Assembly: GCA_016198705.1 (NCBI GenBank)
Contig: JACQIA010000035.1
Span: 1 to 36,900 of the forward strand
Length of the DNA stretch: 36,900 nt
Direction: 5' to 3'
Source: Candidatus Aenigmatarchaeota archaeon
GTDB taxonomy: Archaea; Aenigmatarchaeota; Aenigmatarchaeia; CG10238-14; SCSR01
This document shows, one piece after another, positions 2,831 through 36,606 of the stretch. Each line of letters opens with the position of its first letter. Positions within the stretch are counted from its first letter, which is position 1. The translations under genes were made by a program, and so were the position numbers. The notes under the pieces were generated by a model, which made no database searches, was not told where the DNA came from, and saw only the letters and a list, made by a program, of their open reading frames with translations.

Positions 2831-3364
2831 CTAAAGATTCGGAATTAAGAAAGGCACGCGTTTTTTATACTGAATGTATTCTTTACCAAATCTGGCTTCC
2901 AATTCCTTCTCTTCAACAAGTTTTATGTATGCAAGGTAAGAAAGCGGAATAACCAACCCAATTCCGATAAAAGAAAGCGAATTAAAAATCACTCCTAATC
3001 CAGCAACATAGATAATAACTCCCAGCACCATTGGATTGCGTGAATGTGCAAACGGGCCACTTGTCACCAATTTTTGGGTTGGAATAAAGGGAGATGGTGT
3101 ACCTTTGCCAATCCTAAAAAAGATTATTACGGTCCATAGAAACAATGTCAGGCCAGAAGCAAAAATGAATGTGCCTGTAAGTATGTTAAAAGGATATGGC
3201 AAAATTCGAGGCAAGATAACTATACTCTCAATCTCTTTTGATATAACAAACGATAAGCCTGGAATAAAAATAAAAAAGAAAAAAGGGACTACAATTACCA
3301 AGAACAAGAGCTTTTGCAATTGACTATATTTTTTCCTTTGCCACTCAATATACCTTTTAATCAT
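2831..3364 (-). CDS. Isoprenylcysteine carboxyl methyltransferase/PEMT-like membrane protein
   Basis: 177-residue integral membrane protein with about four hydrophobic segments (near residues 19-41, 61-83, 112-128, 130-147). The C-terminal part has the ICMT/PEMT family signature: G103-P-F-A-H-S-R-N-P, the following membrane hairpin, then EEKELEARFGKEYIQYKKRVPFLIP at 151-175. In the family this region binds S-adenosylmethionine and carries conserved Glu and Arg residues. The substrate cannot be deduced: archaeal members could methylate a lipid or a membrane component. An ahcY gene at the far end of the window would recycle the S-adenosylhomocysteine such enzymes make, but that link is general. 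Confidence 0.82.
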   Translation of the reverse strand: MIKRYIEWQRKKYSQLQKLLFLVIVVPFFFFIFIPGLSFVISKEIESIVILPRILPYPFNILTGTFIFASGLTLFLWTVIIFFRIGKGTPSPFIPTQKLVTSGPFAHSRNPMVLGVIIYVAGLGVIFNSLSFIGIGLVIPLSYLAYIKLVEEKELEARFGKEYIQYKKRVPFLIPNL

Positions 3365-3383
3365 TCATCATCAATAGATTTGT

Positions 3384-4139
3384 CTAAACATCAACGGCAT
3401 TCTCAGGCCTTTTGCCTTTGTCAATCATCTGTTCTTTCACAGTTATTTCATTAGTTATCGCCCTGAAGACAGGGCCTAATGTATAGCCTTGTGCAGTCCT
3501 GCTTATCATCTTAGGGACATCAAAATCTATTGTCAGCACAGTTGCTTTATCCGGTTCTACACTGAACGGCCTTACAATCTTCAAAACATTGCTGGGTATG
3601 TACAGTGGATAGGTTTTGTTGGAAATTTCAAAAAGCGGGTTATCGATTTTAACGCTGGCACCTGAGACGTACAGTCTTATTTGCGTATAATTGCCAGGAT
3701 CAAGCTCCTTCTCAGCTAGCAATGCAATATTATCAGTATACTGCAGCAGATCGAAGGACTTATCACCTTCAAGCACAGTAATCCAGCCAGATGCCAGTAC
3801 ACTCATATTCTCGAGCGCCTCAGTTGTAGTATGCACCTGCACGCTCTTTACTGTCATGAATAATTCTGTAGCCTCTCCCAATCCGACACCAGTCAATTTC
3901 TGTTTCACATCCTTTACTGCAATTATTACACTTCCTTTAGGTGCAGGCGGTGGTACAGTTTCTATTTCTATTTCATGTGCAGGTTCTGCTTCTGTCTGTG
4001 GAGCTACTTGAGTTGCCGGTTTGTATTGGCTGGAATAAACAACAGTAACAATCACCAACACAACAATTCCCAGGAAAAACGCCAATTTCCTATAGTCTTT
4101 TTCCGAATAACTTTTCCAATAGTCGTTCCAATGCCTTTT
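3384..4139 (-). CDS. Membrane-anchored DUF4382-domain protein
   Basis: 251 residues from the ATG at 4139 (MKRHWNDYWKS); an in-frame start 16 codons upstream gives a poorer, Cys/Leu-rich leader. A charged N-terminus is followed by one transmembrane helix (LAFFLGIVVLVIVTVVYSS, about residues 20-38), then a Pro/Glu/Ala linker, then the DUF4382 domain: GSVIIAVKDVK, LTGVGLGEATELFMTVKSVQVH, SFDLLQYTDN, and LTIDFDVPK near the end. The family is found mostly in secreted or surface proteins and has a beta-sandwich-like pattern; its biochemical role is unknown. The domain lies outside the membrane by this topology. TATA-like TTAAAAAG about 30 nt upstream supports this start. Confidence 0.78.
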   Translation of the reverse strand, partial: KRHWNDYWKSYSEKDYRKLAFFLGIVVLVIVTVVYSSQYKPATQVAPQTEAEPAHEIEIETVPPPAPKGSVIIAVKDVKQKLTGVGLGEATELFMTVKSVQVHTTTEALENMSVLASGWITVLEGDKSFDLLQYTDNIALLAEKELDPGNYTQIRLYVSGASVKIDNPLFEISNKTYPLYIPSNVLKIVRPFSVEPDKATVLTIDFDVPKMISRTAQGYTLGPVFRAITNEITVKEQMIDKGKRPENAVDV

Positions 4140-4222
4140 CATTAATAATATACATAGCACTATCAGATTAAATCTTTTTAAGCACAAAACACCAACTAAT
4201 GATTCAAAAAAGGAAGATATTT

Positions 4223-5634: not shown

Positions 5635-6103
5635 AAAAATCTTTAACCACCACAATTATTTTTTCCCTTGCGTCTATTAAATTTTTCTTGAATACAAATA
5701 AACTCACCAAAAGACTTAAGCCTATAGTTTCTGTGAATATTTCAAATAAATCAACAACTATTTTTATTCCAGTTACAGGCACAAGATCATAAGTTACAAG
5801 CGGCCATAACCAAGGCAACGGAGTTCTTATGTCCTCTATCAAATGCATGTAGGTTCCAAACAGAACAGCTATCGCTACAGCCTTTCGTTTGGTTGCTAAA
5901 TAAACAATGGCACTTAATGCAGGACCAAAAAATAAATTGTGCGCAACTAGCCTGGTATAAGGAGATAACCCAGCCAGCAATAACCCCTTGTCAACAAAAT
6001 CCGGCAATATAGAACTTATGCCAACTATCAATGGCGACAGATACAAAAACAGGCCAAAAAATGCAGAAATGCCTATATGGCCAAAGAACAGCATTCTACT
6101 CAA
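5606..6103 (-). CDS. YdjM/DUF457-type membrane-bound putative metal-dependent hydrolase
   Basis: 165 residues with several transmembrane helices. The family pattern of membrane-embedded His/Asp residues is visible: H9 (FFGHIG), D35 in SSILPDFVD, H55 (VAHNLF), and H87-x2-E90-D91 (GTYMHLIEDI), which probably form a metal site. The homologous bacterial family is called LexA-regulated membrane hydrolase; no substrate is known. It starts 8 nt after the rps10 stop and overlaps the ogg gene, so it lies in one minus-strand unit with rps10. The basic C-terminal tail (KDFYDKRLVKK) is probably cytoplasmic. Confidence 0.8.
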   Translation of the reverse strand: MSRMLFFGHIGISAFFGLFLYLSPLIVGISSILPDFVDKGLLLAGLSPYTRLVAHNLFFGPALSAIVYLATKRKAVAIAVLFGTYMHLIEDIRTPLPWLWPLVTYDLVPVTGIKIVVDLFEIFTETIGLSLLVSLFVFKKNLIDAREKIIVVVKDFYDKRLVKKI

Positions 6104-8804: not shown

Positions 8805-9194
8805 ATGGCAGATCTTGAAATCATTGCTGTTGTCATGGGAATATTGATTATTATTACAAGGCTACCCGCTCTTCTTTGGCCAAAACAGTTTATTTCTTAT
8901 TGGAAGGAAAAATTTTCTAAAGAGTCTTCTGCAAAGACATTGGGGGCAATTGCTTTCCTAGTTGGCTTATTTTTCATTTATCTCATTTGGAATGAGATTT
9001 CCTTGCTGCAATTGCTGGTTGGTGGAATTTCAATAACGGTGTTGATAATTGGATTATTGCTGTTTTTAGTTCCAAAATTACCTTCGAATATTATGAATAC
9101 AATGGAAAAGAAATTGCCATTGTTAAGAGTTTTAGCTTTTATCGCAGTTCTAATAGGAATTTTATTAATTTCTTTAGGATATCAGGTTTTATAA
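8805..9194 (+). CDS. Four-helix integral membrane protein, hypothetical
   Basis: 129 residues, almost entirely four hydrophobic helices (about 5-24, 46-62, 66-87 and 107-127), with a short basic loop after helix 1 (WPKQFISYWKEKFSKESS). No catalytic or binding motif is visible and no named family is recognised; it looks like small archaeal and bacterial uncharacterised membrane proteins. It starts 21 nt after padR on the same strand and may be cotranscribed, in which case its expression would follow PadR. Confidence 0.65.
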   Translation: MADLEIIAVVMGILIIITRLPALLWPKQFISYWKEKFSKESSAKTLGAIAFLVGLFFIYLIWNEISLLQLLVGGISITVLIIGLLLFLVPKLPSNIMNTMEKKLPLLRVLAFIAVLIGILLISLGYQVL

Positions 9195-10958: not shown

Positions 10959-13157
10959 TCATACTTCTGGTTTGGGTATATCCTCAGGCAAACCCTTCCT
11001 CTTCCTTATTCCCTGTACAACACCCTCAAACAAATCATTCGGCAATCTTTCAAAAACTATTTCTATCAGGCTGTAAAAGCCCCTTCCGCTAGTTGCTGAT
11101 TTCAACGAAGCATCAAACCCAAACATTTCTGCCACAGGCATCTTTGCAGTGATTATTGTCACCCCAAATTCTTCTTTCATATCAAATACCTGCCCTCTCC
11201 TGTTTGTAATTTCTCTTATAACCCCTCCCATCAATTCTGTTGGCACATCAATTCTTATAATTTGTTTCGGTTCCAGCACAGTTGCATTGGCTTTAAGCAT
11301 AGCCTGCCTGATTGCGTATCTAACCGCGGGCATTATCTGTCCAGGTCCTCTGTGCACAGGATCCTCATGCAATTCAGCATCAAGCAATTTTACTTTTAAT
11401 TTTGTGCACGGCTCTCTTGACAGAGGACCGTCTTCGCACACCTCTACAAATGCATCCCTAACCATTTCCATAACCTCGTTCAAGTACTGTATACCTTTAG
11501 TCAAATCAACCAAAACACATTTGTTATGCATCTGTATGATATTTTTCGCCTCATCATAATCCATTCCATATTTACCTATTTTTTTTAACAAATCAGTTTT
11601 CTTGGATTTAATTTCTCCCTCGCTTGGTATATCACCATCGATCATAGCCTTGTATACACCATCTTCCAAAGGCTCCAAAACAAAATAAAATTTGTTGTGC
11701 TTGTTTGGAGATTTCCCCTCCACTTCAGGCGATGGTTCAAAAATCGTTTCTCGATACACTACAATGGGCTTGGACATTTCAACTTCTATGCCCAATTCTT
11801 TCAATTTATTTTCGACTTTGGCTTCCAGGTGCAGTTCACCTAAACCAGAAACAAGATATTCGCCAGTTTCCTGGTTAATTTTTACAACTAAAGTTGTATC
11901 TTCCCTGCCCAATCTTTTTAATGTCTCAACCAGTTTCGGCAGTTCCATCGCATTCTTCGGCTCTATGGATTTCGTTACAACAGCCTCGAACAAATGCCTG
12001 ATTTCTTCAAACGGTTCTATAACATTCCCCGCGTCTGTAACAGTTTCGCCAGTAAACGCATCTTGTATGCCTACCAATCCAACTATATTTCCAGCGCTGA
12101 CCTCGTCAACTGCAATCCTTTGTATTCCCTTGTAGACTGCCACTTGCTGCATTTTTTCCTGTTTATGCTGTCCAATTAAATAAACATCCTTGCCTTTGTA
12201 AACCTTGCCAGAAAATAATCTGCCTGTAGCAACAAAACCAACGTGTGGATCAGGAACCATTTTTGTAACTATCATTGCCAGTTGCCCTTTTGGATCGCAC
12301 GCCAGCATTTGCTTCCCAACTTCACTATTCAAATCACCCTTCCAGATTTTGTCCAGTCTATATTTTTGTGCATCTACAGGGCCTGGCAAATGTTTGATGA
12401 TCATGTCTAAAATAACTTGATGCAATGGTGCTTTTTTAGCCAACTCATCTTCCTTGCCTGCATTAGTCAATTCAATTATCTCTTTGAAAGTAATCCCGGT
12501 TTTTTTCATGAATGGAATTGAGATTGCCCATTTTTTGTACGCAGACCCTATCGCAACTGTGCCGTCATTTACATTAACAAGCCATTTGTCTTTGTAGTCA
12601 TCCTCAACATATTTCTGTATCAAAATATTTACGTCGCGAATAACTTCTTCAAATCTTTTCATCATCATTTCAGGAGTCATCTTCAGTTCTTTGATCAATC
12701 GGTCGGTTTTGTTGATAAATAAAACTGGTTTTACCCTTTCTCTAAGCGCTTGACGGAAGACAGTTTCAGTCTGTGGCATTATTCCTTCCACAGGATCTAC
12801 GAGTACTATAGTTCCATCCACAGCACGCATTGCGCGGGTGACGTCACCACCAAAGTCTACGTGACCAGGTGTGTCGATGAGATTGATTACATAATCATTG
12901 CCTTCATATTCATGGACCATGCTGACGTTTGCACCATATATTGTCAACTGGCGCTTACGCTCCTGTTGATCGAACCATGTGAGCATGCCAGTTTCAACGT
13001 CACCAGCAACTTTTTCGGATATCATTCCAGCTAACATTGCTAGATTATCCGTTAGAGTTGTCTTGCCATGATGGACGTGACTGCTTGTAGCAATGTTTCT
13101 TATTCGAACAGGATCTTTCATTACTTCTACAATCCTTTCTGTTACTTCTTTAGCTAT
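10959..13157 (-). CDS. fusA: Translation elongation factor 2 (aEF-2), probable AUA start
   Basis: Ribosomal translocase GTPase. The first ATG (13121) gives 720 residues, but the frame upstream encodes AKEVTERIVEVMKDPVRIRNI, the family's usual N-terminal helix, after codon ATA at 13157-13155. An in-frame TAA comes immediately before, so no ATG, GTG or TTG can supply it. GGAG at 13167-13170 lies 9 nt before the ATA. The AUA start gives 732 residues, the usual aEF-2 length. Domains I-V are present, as is the diphthamide-site His in PVHRGPGQI. Oddities: the P-loop reads SHVHHGKTT (His29 for the near-invariant Asp) and switch I reads RQLTI rather than RGITI. Confidence 0.95.
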   Translation of the reverse strand: MAKEVTERIVEVMKDPVRIRNIATSSHVHHGKTTLTDNLAMLAGMISEKVAGDVETGMLTWFDQQERKRQLTIYGANVSMVHEYEGNDYVINLIDTPGHVDFGGDVTRAMRAVDGTIVLVDPVEGIMPQTETVFRQALRERVKPVLFINKTDRLIKELKMTPEMMMKRFEEVIRDVNILIQKYVEDDYKDKWLVNVNDGTVAIGSAYKKWAISIPFMKKTGITFKEIIELTNAGKEDELAKKAPLHQVILDMIIKHLPGPVDAQKYRLDKIWKGDLNSEVGKQMLACDPKGQLAMIVTKMVPDPHVGFVATGRLFSGKVYKGKDVYLIGQHKQEKMQQVAVYKGIQRIAVDEVSAGNIVGLVGIQDAFTGETVTDAGNVIEPFEEIRHLFEAVVTKSIEPKNAMELPKLVETLKRLGREDTTLVVKINQETGEYLVSGLGELHLEAKVENKLKELGIEVEMSKPIVVYRETIFEPSPEVEGKSPNKHNKFYFVLEPLEDGVYKAMIDGDIPSEGEIKSKKTDLLKKIGKYGMDYDEAKNIIQMHNKCVLVDLTKGIQYLNEVMEMVRDAFVEVCEDGPLSREPCTKLKVKLLDAELHEDPVHRGPGQIMPAVRYAIRQAMLKANATVLEPKQIIRIDVPTELMGGVIREITNRRGQVFDMKEEFGVTIITAKMPVAEMFGFDASLKSATSGRGFYSLIEIVFERLPNDLFEGVVQGIRKRKGLPEDIPKPEV

Positions 13158-13255
13158 TTATAACATCTCCTTTCAATATTTTTTAAAATTGATTTAAGTT
13201 CTGAACTTATAAGATTTATCAAAGTATAATAAAGTCTAAAATTCATGAAATAGAT

Positions 13256-31162: not shown

Positions 31163-31260
31163 AGCCCCGTCGTCTAGCGGCCAAGGATACGAAAGAGTGT
31201 ATACGCCTCTGGTCGTATGAGAGATAGCTCGGGACGGCAGTTCGAATCTGCCCGGGGCTA
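31163..31260 (+). tRNA. tRNA-Gln(CTG) with two introns
   Basis: Acceptor AGCCCCG/CGGGGCT with A1:U72 and A73, as usual for archaeal tRNA-Gln. The D-arm is GTCT-AGCGGCCAA-GGAT and the T-arm GGCAG-TTCGAAT-CTGCC. The anticodon stem CGAGC/GCTCG is restored by removing 12 nt (31193-31204, AAGAGTGTATAC) at 29/30 and 13 nt (31213-31225, TCGTATGAGAGAT) at 37/38; the loop is then CTCTGGA with anticodon CTG. The introns contain complementary ATAC(G) and (C)GTAT, so they can pair with each other across the exon. Mature length 73 nt. Its last three bases are also the stop codon of carB on the other strand. CCA is not encoded. Confidence 0.88.
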
Positions 31261-34200
31261 TATTCCTAGACTTATTGGCTTTTCTAATGCACCTGCTAAA
31301 ATCTTCACCAGTTCAGCATTTGTTATAATCGGAACACCAAACTCAACAGCCTTCCTTCTTATCAAATGATCATTTGTAATCTCTTCCTCTTCATAGCTTT
31401 TTGGTATGTTGATGACCAAATCAATTTTACCTCCAGAAATAAAAGTTGAAGCATTCGGTTCCTTTCCATCCAATGGCCAATGAAGTATGGTTGTTTTAAT
31501 TCCATTAGACTCCAAGAATTTCGCAGTACCTTCAGTAGCATATAATTCAAATCCAATCTCAACCAACTTCATCACACTTTCAAGCAAATACATTTTAGTT
31601 TTCATAGGTCCAGTAGACAAAAGTATAGTCTTCTTAGGCAATTTAAATCCAGATGCAATCAATGATTTCAAGAACGCCTCATTAAAATCTTTTCCAAAAC
31701 AAGCCACCTCACCCGTTGATGCCATATCCACACTAGTAACAGGATCAGCTCCCTCCAACCTCATGAAAGAAAATTGCGGAGACTTGACTGCCCATCTTGT
31801 TGGAACAGCTTCACTATCATCAACCTTACTACCTAGAAAAACATTGGCAGCCAACCCCATCAAATTAACACCAACTGTTTTAGAAACAAAAGGCATGCTT
31901 CTGCTAGCCCTAAGATTGCATTCAATCACATAAACATTCCCATTCTTCACCAGATATTGGATATTGAAAGGACCTTTGATTCTCAACTCCTTTGCTATCT
32001 TTCTAGTATAATCGCGAATCTTGGTTTTCACATCTTCACTGATTGTGATGGTTGGAATAGAGATTGTAGCATCCCCTGAATGCACACCAGCTTCTTCAGC
32101 ATGTTCTAAAATGGCTCCAATGAATACATTCTCACCATCACTCACAGCGTCAACTTCCACTTCCCTCGATTCAATGAAAAATTTAGATATCACAACAGGA
32201 TGCTCGCGTGAAACATCAGCTGCAACTTTCAAATAATTTTCCAATTCATGTTCGTCATTGACTACCTGCATTGCAGAGCCTGACAAAACATAAGACGGGC
32301 GAATCAAAACAGGATATCCGATTTCTTGTGCAAATCTCTTTGCATTTTCCAAGTTTTCCAACCTGCTCCATATAGGCTGTGGTATTTTTAATTCATCAAG
32401 TATCGCGCTGAATTTAGCCCTGTCCTCCGATCTGTCTATATTTTCTGCAGACGTTCCAAGTATTTTAATTCCATTATCCACAAGTTTCAAAGCAACATTG
32501 TTTGGTATCTGCCCGCCTACGCTAACAACAACGCCATCAACATTTTCCTTTTCTGCTATGTCCAAAACCCTTTCTAATGTCAACTCCTCGAAATAAAGTT
32601 TGTCTAAGATGTCATAATCGGTTGAAACGGTTTCCGGGTTATAGTTTATCATTATAACTTCACCAACACCTTTGTCCTTTAGCGCCCAAGCCATGTTCAC
32701 ACAACACCAGTCAAACTCAACGCTGCTTCCAATCCTGTAGCATCCTGAGCCAAGAACTATGATTTTATTCTTTCGTTGGAAGTCTATGTCGTCTGCATTT
32801 CCATGATAAGTTAGGTAAAGGTAATTGGTAACCGCAGGCCATTCTGCCGCTAAAGTGTCTATCTGTTTTGCCACCGGAATTATTCCAAAAGATTTCCTCA
32901 AGCGTCTTATTTCATCTTCGCTCTTCCCAACCAATTTCCCTATTTTTTTATCAGAAAATCCCAACTGCTTTGCTTCCTTCAATAAATTTGGCAATAATTC
33001 TGAATTTCTTAATTTGTTCTCAAAGCCAACAATATTTTTTATTTTGTACAAAAACCACTCGTCTATACCACTCAACATATGGATTTCATCTATGGCCATC
33101 CCAACTTGCAGCGCCTTTACAACATAAAAAATTCTTTTGTCAGTTGGAAATTCCAATTCATATCTTATCTTTTCCAAATCAGGTCTGATATCATCAACAT
33201 CTGTCAATTCCTTTCCAATATCAAGCATCCTGACAGCTTTTTGTATTGTCTCTTCGAAAGTTCTTCCTATTGCCATCACTTCTCCAACAGATTTCATTTG
33301 TGTCCCTATTCGTCTGCTAACGTTCTTGAATTTCTGGAAATCCCATCTCGGAATTTTAATTGTAATATAATCCAACGCTGGTTCAAAGCAAGCAGTGGTA
33401 ACGCCTGTGACTTTGTTAACTAATTCTGGTAAAGTGTAGCCTGCAGCTAGCTTCGCAGCAATGTACGCAATTGGATATCCGGTTGCTTTGCTAGCTAATG
33501 CAGAACTTCTCGACAGTCTTGAGTTGACTTCTATCACACGATATTCTTCTTTGTCAGGATGAACAGCAAATTGTATGTTGGATTCCCCAACAATTCCTAA
33601 TGCGCGGATAACTTTAAAACTCAACATCCTCAATTCATGATATTCCCTGTTTGTTAAAGTTTGCGATGGAGCTACAACAATGCTTTCACCAGTATGAACT
33701 CCCATAGGATCCCAGTTTTCCATATTACAAACTATTGTGCAGTTATCAGCCGAATCTCGCATCACTTCATATTCAATCTCCTTCCATTTCCCAACATATT
33801 CTTCAATCAAAATTTGGTTTATTCTGCTGTACGCTAAACCACGGGCTGCTATTTCTGTTAATTCCTTGAAATTGTAAGCCACACCTGAACCCTGACCTCC
33901 TAAAGTGTAAGCAACTCTTATCATCACAGGATAGCCGATTTCTTTCGCAGCCTCTAGCGCTTCGTCAATCGAATTAGCCTTCTTACTTTTTGGTATAGGT
34001 ATATCGTTTTTAACCATCAGCTTTCTAAATTCATCCCTGTTATCACAAGTTTCAATTGCAAAAATTCCTGTCCCTAAAACTTCCACATTGTATTTTTCTA
34101 GAATTCCTTTTTCATATAATTCCATTCCAGCATTCAGTGCAGTCTGCCCGCCGAAGCTTAATAAAATCCCATCAGGTCTTTCCTTTTCTATAACTTTTTC

Positions 34201-34422
34201 TAGAAATTCAGATGTCAATGGAACGAAATAAACTTCATCAACAAATTTTTTATCTGATTGAATAGTAGCTATATTCGGATTTACTAAAATTACTTTTATC
34301 CCTTCTTCTCTTAATGCTTTGATTGCTTGGGCACCGGCGTAGTCGAATTCACCCGCTTCACCAATTTTAATTGCCCCGCTACCTAGTAGCAGAACTTTTT
34401 TTATTGTTTCATTGCACGACAT
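31258..34422 (-). CDS. carB: Carbamoyl-phosphate synthase large subunit
   Basis: Makes carbamoyl phosphate from bicarbonate, ammonia (channelled from CarA) and two ATP, for pyrimidine and arginine synthesis. 1054 residues, normal. There are two homologous synthetase halves: KKVLLLGSGAIKIGEAGEFDYAGAQA and GGQTALNAGMEL in the first, KIIVLGSGCYRIGSSVEFDWCCVNMA and GGQIPNNVALKL in the second. Each is followed by an ATP-grasp domain (VIRVAYTLGGQGSG-like, and LIRPSYVLSGSAMQVV). The C-terminal MGS-like allosteric domain spans about 930-1054 (LLSTGPMKTKMYLLE). GAGGGATAAAAA is its Shine-Dalgarno. It overlaps carA by 14 bp, and its TAG lies within the opposite-strand tRNA-Gln. Confidence 0.98.
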   Translation of the reverse strand: MSCNETIKKVLLLGSGAIKIGEAGEFDYAGAQAIKALREEGIKVILVNPNIATIQSDKKFVDEVYFVPLTSEFLEKVIEKERPDGILLSFGGQTALNAGMELYEKGILEKYNVEVLGTGIFAIETCDNRDEFRKLMVKNDIPIPKSKKANSIDEALEAAKEIGYPVMIRVAYTLGGQGSGVAYNFKELTEIAARGLAYSRINQILIEEYVGKWKEIEYEVMRDSADNCTIVCNMENWDPMGVHTGESIVVAPSQTLTNREYHELRMLSFKVIRALGIVGESNIQFAVHPDKEEYRVIEVNSRLSRSSALASKATGYPIAYIAAKLAAGYTLPELVNKVTGVTTACFEPALDYITIKIPRWDFQKFKNVSRRIGTQMKSVGEVMAIGRTFEETIQKAVRMLDIGKELTDVDDIRPDLEKIRYELEFPTDKRIFYVVKALQVGMAIDEIHMLSGIDEWFLYKIKNIVGFENKLRNSELLPNLLKEAKQLGFSDKKIGKLVGKSEDEIRRLRKSFGIIPVAKQIDTLAAEWPAVTNYLYLTYHGNADDIDFQRKNKIIVLGSGCYRIGSSVEFDWCCVNMAWALKDKGVGEVIMINYNPETVSTDYDILDKLYFEELTLERVLDIAEKENVDGVVVSVGGQIPNNVALKLVDNGIKILGTSAENIDRSEDRAKFSAILDELKIPQPIWSRLENLENAKRFAQEIGYPVLIRPSYVLSGSAMQVVNDEHELENYLKVAADVSREHPVVISKFFIESREVEVDAVSDGENVFIGAILEHAEEAGVHSGDATISIPTITISEDVKTKIRDYTRKIAKELRIKGPFNIQYLVKNGNVYVIECNLRASRSMPFVSKTVGVNLMGLAANVFLGSKVDDSEAVPTRWAVKSPQFSFMRLEGADPVTSVDMASTGEVACFGKDFNEAFLKSLIASGFKLPKKTILLSTGPMKTKMYLLESVMKLVEIGFELYATEGTAKFLESNGIKTTILHWPLDGKEPNASTFISGGKIDLVINIPKSYEEEEITNDHLIRRKAVEFGVPIITNAELVKILAGALEKPISLGI

Positions 34423-35524
34423 TTTTTATCCCTCGGATGAAATTGTCAAATAAAAATCCGCTTTCCAAAGGCCCAGGCCCTTCAGGATGCCACTGGACGC
34501 CAAAAACTGGCTTGCTCTTATGCCTGATTCCTTCCACAGTTTTGTCATTGACATTAATGTGACTAACCACGAAATTTGTATTTTCTAGTGATTCTGGTTT
34601 AATTGTATATCCATGATTTTGTGTCGTGATGTAAACATTCTTTGTTTGCAAATCCATGCAGGGATGATTTTGTGCACGATGGCCAAATTTCAACTTGTAA
34701 GTATCTCCGCCTGCAGCCAAACCTAAAATTTGATTTCCCAAACAAATTCCCATTAATGGTATATCCGTCTCTAAAAACCCTCTAACGGTTTCAATAGTTT
34801 TTACGCACATCTTAGGATCACCAGGACCGTTTGATACAACAATTCCAGCAGGATTGTAACTTAGAATTTTCTCAGCAGAAAAATCATACGGAACTCTTAT
34901 CACATCAACATTTCTTGCCAACAGCTCTCTTAAAATGCCAAACTTCACACCGCAATCTATCAGAACAACTTTAGGAGAATTGCCTGAATTGTATTCAACA
35001 ACTTTATCAACACTTACAGTCTTTACTAAATTTCTTGTGTTCGGATCTTCTATGGAATTTGTTTTTGATTCTATTTCCTGCATGTCTATTTCTTCTGCAA
35101 TATTTAAAATTCCCAACATCACACCTTTGATTCGCAATTTCTTTGTCAACTCTCTTGTATCAATGCCGTAAATTCCAGGAACCTTCTCTTTTTTCAGCCA
35201 TTCATCCAAAGTTTCTTCCTGGGCCCAATGGCTTGGATTTTTCTGCAATTCAGATATGCAATAACCAGTCACCTGTATTCTATCCGATTCGAAATGCAGA
35301 GGAATGCCAAAATTGTTTGTAATCTTATGCGAAGAAACGGCATAATTGCCGATCAATGGATAAGTTTGAACTAAAATCTGTCCATAGTAAGACGGATCAG
35401 TTAATGATTCAGGATATCCAACCATTCCAGTATTGAAAACTACCTCGCCTGTAATTTCTGTAGGATAACCGAAACCAATACCTTCGAATATCGTCCCGTC
35501 TTCTAATACTAAAACAGCCTTAAT
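34409..35524 (-). CDS. carA: Carbamoyl-phosphate synthase small subunit (glutaminase), probable AUU start
   Basis: Hydrolyses glutamine and passes ammonia to CarB. The first ATG (35425) would start at MVGYPESLTDPSY, losing the family's conserved N-terminus. The frame upstream encodes exactly that missing part, KAVLVLEDGTIFEGIGFGYP and then TEITGEVVFNTG, after codon ATT at 35524-35522. Five codons earlier (35539-35537) is an in-frame TAA, and no ATG, GTG or TTG lies between. TATA-like TTAAAAAT is centred about 25 nt upstream of the ATT. The full product is 371 residues. Nucleophile C261 (MGICLGNQ), and H346 and E348 (QWHPEGPGP), complete the triad. Confidence 0.95.
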   Translation of the reverse strand: MKAVLVLEDGTIFEGIGFGYPTEITGEVVFNTGMVGYPESLTDPSYYGQILVQTYPLIGNYAVSSHKITNNFGIPLHFESDRIQVTGYCISELQKNPSHWAQEETLDEWLKKEKVPGIYGIDTRELTKKLRIKGVMLGILNIAEEIDMQEIESKTNSIEDPNTRNLVKTVSVDKVVEYNSGNSPKVVLIDCGVKFGILRELLARNVDVIRVPYDFSAEKILSYNPAGIVVSNGPGDPKMCVKTIETVRGFLETDIPLMGICLGNQILGLAAGGDTYKLKFGHRAQNHPCMDLQTKNVYITTQNHGYTIKPESLENTNFVVSHINVNDKTVEGIRHKSKPVFGVQWHPEGPGPLESGFLFDNFIRGIKNVVQ

Positions 35525-35585
35525 TGAAACCCACTTTTAGTTTGATTTTTAAGGTTTAAAAAGATTATGTGTTTATTTGCGAAAA

Positions 35586-36374: not shown

Positions 36375-36405
36375 AAAATCACTTAGTGATTAACAAATAA
36401 AGGAA

Positions 36406-36573
36406 CTATTTAATGCCCTTTAGTCTTTGTTTTAGGTAGGTTATTTTATTCTGCAGGAATTTCATTTCTTTAACACTTCTGGCAAATCCTAATGATTGCT
36501 GAGTTTCTATCAGCATCTCTTGCAAAAACTGGTTATGTGCGGCTACTAGTCTTTCTTTGTTTCCATTTGTCAT
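36406..36573 (-). CDS. Small helical protein (55 aa), hypothetical
   Basis: From ATG 36573 the product begins MTNGNKERLVAAHNQFLQEM and has a coiled-coil-like pattern through ETQQSLGFARSVKEMKFLQN to a basic end (KITYLKQRLKGIK). The plus-strand ACTTATATTTAAG at 36592-36604 reads as a TATA-like CTTAAATATAAG on the minus strand, about 25 nt upstream, supporting a leaderless start. It ends 31 nt before the 262-aa gene, and both are on the minus strand, so they may be cotranscribed. No family is recognised. Confidence 0.5.
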   Translation of the reverse strand: MTNGNKERLVAAHNQFLQEMLIETQQSLGFARSVKEMKFLQNKITYLKQRLKGIK

Positions 36574-36590
36574 AGTCACTATATAGTAGT

Positions 36591-36606
36591 TACTTATATT
36601 TAAGTA
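36591..36606. promoter_or_regulatory. Inverted repeat overlapping a TATA box
   Basis: TACTTATATTTAAGTA has 6-bp arms (TACTTA/TAAGTA) around TATT. It coincides with the TATA-like element of the 55-aa gene, so a bound regulator would block TBP. It may also simply be the TATA box. Confidence 0.35.

Follow-up and report, generated by a model that had tools for sequence, protein, structure and literature searches.

Where does translation of carA begin when its conserved N-terminus is preceded by no ordinary start codon? The question is raised by a 36,900-nucleotide stretch (the window) of an Aenigmatarchaeota genome, designated G000, in which an earlier note had proposed that the gene starts at AUU. 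The features concerned are the following:

34409..35524, minus strand: carA, carbamoyl-phosphate synthase small subunit, read from ATT; 371 codons plus stop (from the translation, PF00988 and solved CPSase chains)
35522..35524, minus strand: ATT, the proposed carA start, aligned with the Ile/Leu codon 2 of relatives
35423..35425, minus strand: first in-frame carA ATG (Met34), the start that automatic annotation would pick
35537..35539, minus strand: in-frame TAA, five codons 5' of the ATT; found at the same place in G002, a genome of the same family
31258..34422, minus strand: carB, large subunit, with an ordinary ATG start; same strand as carA, whose end it overlaps

The missing start codon of carA

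On the minus strand the frame reads TAA AAG TGG GTT TCA ATT AAG GCT GTT TTA GTA TTA GAA GAC GGG. In the locus sequence, no ATG, GTG or TTG is found in this frame between the TAA (35539-35537) and the conserved core; rereading of 35539-35522 bore out the earlier description of a stop five codons before the ATT with no canonical codon in between. The first in-frame ATG, at 35425, is codon 34 when counting from ATT. The claim that the N-terminal strands of CarA are encoded upstream of that ATG also held, the Pfam model CPSase_sm_chain being aligned from its position 1 at 35512, 29 codons 5' of ATG34 (PF00988, E = 1.3e-50, 170 bits, positions 1-125). Solved CPSase chains match full-length, over CarA query residues 3-367 (E down to 2.7e-91), and the alignment begins at codon 3 in all solved CarA homologues. 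The protein carries both the N-terminal CPSase_sm_chain and the class I glutamine amidotransferase domain, and carB is adjacent (31258-34422). The absence of a canonical start before the conserved N-terminus was thus confirmed.

Met34, the first canonical start codon, could be the start of a short CarA. Between codons 2 and 33, comparison with G002 gave 6, 4 and 20 differences at the three codon positions, and 15 synonymous against 8 replacement codons. Since substitutions are concentrated at the third position, the stretch upstream of Met34 is, on this comparison, under protein-coding constraint. The 33 upstream residues are conserved and present in all solved homologues, and without its first strands the N-terminal domain, which binds CarB, should be disrupted, so that a short form is very improbable.

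The nearest CarA homologues, each at 68% identity, are those of G002, L050 (H03B2) and L051 (HK01M). The carAB pair (31258-35524 in the window) is present in three of the 36 genomes of the order, and the window CarA is no closer to same-family G002 than to L050 and L051, one of which is labelled Methylarchaceae; this suggests that carAB has moved between archaeal lineages. Patchy presence, combined with a lost start, might also be the mark of an early pseudogene. Given 371 open codons, the identity to G002 and an intact carB downstream, we regard this as the least credible of the explanations considered.

The ancestral start and the carA leader

Where the start used to be can be read from the relatives, by way of one more codon:

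35525..35527, minus strand: TCA, aligned with the TTG start of carA in G002, L050, L051 and E. coli

The nearest homologues begin with TTG-CTC-AAA or TTG-ATT-AAA and the window has TCA-ATT-AAG. In E. coli, carA is known to start at TTG (PMC6245113), and its start region, TTG-ATT-AAG, shares with the window the codons after the start; it keeps TTG and a strong Shine-Dalgarno (SD) site (-9.8), whereas the window has TCA and a moderate one. The alignment indicates that the lost start is the codon before ATT, and that ATT is the second codon (Ile2) of the family. The earlier placement of the family's initiator Met at ATT has therefore to be moved one codon upstream. As ATT is expected from protein homology, its presence alone is no evidence of initiation. 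Loss of the start at this position is not known from any relative; G002, L050 and L051 all have TTG, and no non-canonical start has been kept among them.

More widely, a canonical start precedes the core in 76 of 81 closed CarA loci, so that its absence here is more than chance. The window's carA is one of the five exceptions; the other four (L062, L064, L107, L066) comprise three Nitrososphaerota-like loci, in which ATT codons lie nearby, and one from Aminicenantes. For carB, five of 28 archaeal loci lack a canonical start, compared to none of 42 bacterial loci (P = 0.008), while the same comparison for CarA alone gives P = 0.12; some of the genomes are related, and both values are indicative only. 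Among Nitrososphaerota-like genomes, carB without a canonical start was seen in L067, L068, L082 and L052, near 3130-4140. In the first three, GTA overlaps the carA stop (GTAA/GTAG) where L073 has GTG (GTGA), and in L052 the sequence is ATT-CCA-AAG-CGG where other carB genes begin MPKR.

The carA leader contains three further features:

35553..35562, minus strand: TATA box TTTTTAAACC, 7.3 bits with a genome-derived matrix, starting 38 nt before ATT
35530..35539, minus strand: TAAAAGTGGG, which includes a moderate SD-like stretch; 9 of 10 positions conserved in G002 (TAAGAGTGGG)
35532..35534, minus strand: GTG, one base out of frame, spaced from the TATA box almost as in a leaderless gene; also out of frame in G002

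The TATA matrix was trained on 473 conserved genes from three genomes of the family, and its peak lies 32-29 nt before the start codon, as in leaderless or nearly leaderless genes. A TATA-like element had been noted about 25 nt before the ATT; the 10-mer in fact begins at -38, from which a leader of only 6-9 nt is predicted, the 5' end of the transcript probably lying that far upstream of ATT. The leader pairs with the 16S tail (taken from the end of L209) at -5.9 kcal/mol, which is moderate, in the top 24% of genes. No Rfam element was found in the leader at E up to 1. The pattern TAARAGTGGG was also considered as a genome-wide leader motif and discarded: of its 4 hits, the other three fall in unrelated sequence, and the number equals that of the reversed-pattern control.

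The out-of-frame GTG figures in two alternative explanations. First, an error in the consensus, or a strain-level lesion, may conceal the start; a one-base indel in GTGGGTTT, for instance, could have shifted the GTG at 35534 out of frame. The GTG lies 28 nt after the start of the TATA 10-mer, near the leaderless peak, and an in-frame GTG is found near this place in several archaeal carA loci (L067, L068, L073, L082). Lesions do exist in this genome, as MetK has a one-base frameshift. However, AGTGGG recurs in the independent genome G002, with the GTG in the same wrong frame, and two substitutions would be required to restore TTG. Frame breaks are, moreover, rare in G000: none was found among 205 G012 proteins matched to it, which gave 3 in-frame stops, nor among 81 G013 and 91 G009 proteins, which gave no in-frame stop either. 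Gene-breaking assembly errors are thus rare in G000, and a hidden start is unlikely, if still the foremost of the alternatives.

Second, translation may begin elsewhere, at another non-AUG codon (UCA, GUU, AAG) or at the out-of-frame GUG with a subsequent +1 shift. G002 shares TAARAGTGGG but not the DNA around it, which points to a functional region, and the GTG is near leaderless spacing in both genomes (at -31 in G002). Nevertheless, reading from the GTG meets a stop after 4 codons in the window and 10 in G002, no slippery motif can be seen, and among the codons present AUU is the best documented near-cognate start. We consider a start at another place improbable.

Two other genes of G000 have peculiarities of their own. 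In MetK (L224, G000:C49, around 5990-6060, plus strand), the Met position is occupied by CTG, preceded by the strongest of all the SDs measured (-17.9 kcal/mol), and the one-base shift, at CAT CCT TGA C, resembles an RF2 frameshift context, or may simply be an error. In the gene for the RtcB RNA ligase (L147, G000:C18, reverse-strand offset about 1757-1787), MPDGH and SGYGFPIGG, adjacent in the G012 homologue, are separated by 30 additional bases that include an in-frame TAG. A bulge-helix-bulge-like fold is obtained for this segment (z = -1.28), and the insert may be a splicing-endonuclease intron within the ligase gene itself.

Putative AUN starts in the genome and its family

A second AUN start had been claimed for EF-2 in the same window, and here the sequence supports the claim:

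10959..13157, minus strand: EF-2 read from ATA (13157-13155), the companion AUN case
13167..13173, minus strand: AAAGGAG, SD site 9 nt before the EF-2 ATA; -8.8 kcal/mol, top 9% of G000 genes

As in carA, the AUN codon directly precedes the conserved N-terminus with no canonical start upstream. It comes immediately after a TAA and, in contrast to the ATT of carA, which is aligned with codon 2, it stands exactly at the initiator Met position, where relatives have ATG, behind a strong SD. In six other genomes (G002, G011, G012, G016, G046, G047), EF-2 contains long in-frame inserts near residue 27, at the GKTT P-loop, which are probably inteins; the window EF-2 has no insert there.

It had been suggested that AUN starts might be a genome-wide habit. 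We scanned 557 kb of G000 including the window (about half of the genome), and portions of three genomes of the same family, for ORFs with conserved residues that lie 5' of any ATG, GTG or TTG. EF-2 was the only clean AUN case among 274 conserved closed G000 ORFs, a set that leaves out CarA because the comparison relatives lack it. On this sample, AUN starts are rejected as a common feature of the genome, where normal starts are ATG, TTG and GTG in 122, 17 and 8 cases. Looser AUN candidates mostly had a canonical start beside them, and a small ORF at 36405-36606, which had appeared startless, proved ordinary, with a GTG and an ATG common to G012 and G013. The initiator tRNA was not found in the sampled G000 stretches. 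ARAGORN reported a tRNA-Pyl with anticodon CTA (L210, G000:C16:20001-30993, 9060-9156), which may be a miscalled intron-containing tRNA.

In the relatives, three AUN cases were found by homology alone, in genes that we take, from recognition of the sequences and not from a family search, to be DRG GTPase in G009 (ATT), RpoN in G012 (ATC) and Asp/AsnRS in G012 (ATT). Each of the three (L255, L228, L243) has no canonical start upstream and a strong SD. With EF-2 (-8.8 kcal/mol), this makes four clean cases, the others pairing at -8.1 (DRG), -8.4 (RpoN) and -8.3 kcal/mol (Asp/AsnRS), and their SDs fall in the top 7-19% of each genome. The product of the four percentiles is about 1 in 10,000, for a small case set picked partly by eye. 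Random sequencing errors would not favour genes with a strong SD, which fits real weak starts. The strong SD sites ahead of the clean cases make rare AUN starts seem real in this family of genomes. In this set carA is the weakest member, being a poorer example than EF-2 because its ATT is off the Met position and its SD, at -5.9 compared to -8.1 to -8.8 kcal/mol, is moderate.

Proposed initiation at AUU and its significance

The original proposal is thus partly supported: the conserved N-terminus of carA lacks any canonical start and EF-2 has ATA at its Met position, but the ATT of carA aligns with codon 2 of the family. Initiation at AUU is the best single reading of the locus, with a chance that we place just short of even. 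Several observations favour it: there is no canonical start, constraint reaches to codon 2, and CarA (371 aa) and CarB are intact; the same family has four clean AUN-at-Met cases with strong SDs; gene-breaking assembly errors are rare in G000; and carA has a weak start elsewhere, namely the TTG of E. coli and the three Nitrososphaerota-like loci without a canonical start. Among the codons between the TAA and the core, AUU is the nearest to AUG, save AAG, which is likewise one base off.

If AUU is used, carA would be an intact gene, expressed with the N-terminus complete. The lineage would have lost the ancestral UUG start (now UCA), initiation having moved to the next codon, AUU, which was already the Ile2 of the family. 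The transcript would begin about 6-9 nt upstream of AUU, as the TATA box at -38 predicts, with the AAGUGGGU stretch perhaps serving as an SD site of modest strength. AUU would be decoded by the initiator tRNA through a mismatch at the third position, and output would be low but sufficient. The N-terminus would then be (M)KAVLVLEDGTIFEGIGFGYPTEITGEVVFNTG for CarA, and (M)AKEVTER for EF-2 read from ATA.

Bacterial precedents are E. coli infC and pcnB, which have AUU or AUA starts. In S. aureus, the infC start is AUA, and reporters of ccpN, cvfC1 and citZ gave, from AUU or AUA, about 10 to 30% of the AUG output; extended SD motifs are present at the infC, cvfC1 and ccpN sites (PMC13009471). The reliance of these proven S. 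aureus starts on extended SD motifs weakens the AUU reading for carA, where the SD is moderate, as does the TATA box, which places the end of the transcript away from ATT. These E. coli and S. aureus genes resemble carA in having an AUN near-cognate start on a conserved gene, with low output expected. They differ in that their SDs are strong or extended, that several of their starts are conserved among relatives, and that they were confirmed by ribosome profiling and reporters, whereas carA is known here from its sequence.

In a survey of bacterial and archaeal groups, switches of the start codon to AUU were very rare, being found for 1 of 61,358 ancestral AUG and 1 of 5,080 ancestral GUG codons (PMC5622118); these counts presumably rest on existing annotations. 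No report of AUN starts in such archaea was found in the literature searched. Our broader proposal, advanced tentatively as one that may well prove wrong, is that AUU, AUA and AUC serve in this family of small-genome archaea as rare but true starts of core genes, enabled by strong SDs, in about 0.3 to 1% of genes. The core genes concerned would be EF-2, RpoN, Asp/AsnRS, DRG GTPase and CarA, with starts invisible to standard gene callers, a list no less tentative than the proposal.

If these starts are real, essential archaeal proteins, EF-2 and CarA among them, are cut short by gene callers, and initiation in archaea is less strict than annotations would have it, even for the presumably abundant EF-2. 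EF-2, carA and the others provide concrete genes for testing near-cognate initiation in archaea, and the predicted link between AUN codons and strong SDs lends itself to a check in many genomes.
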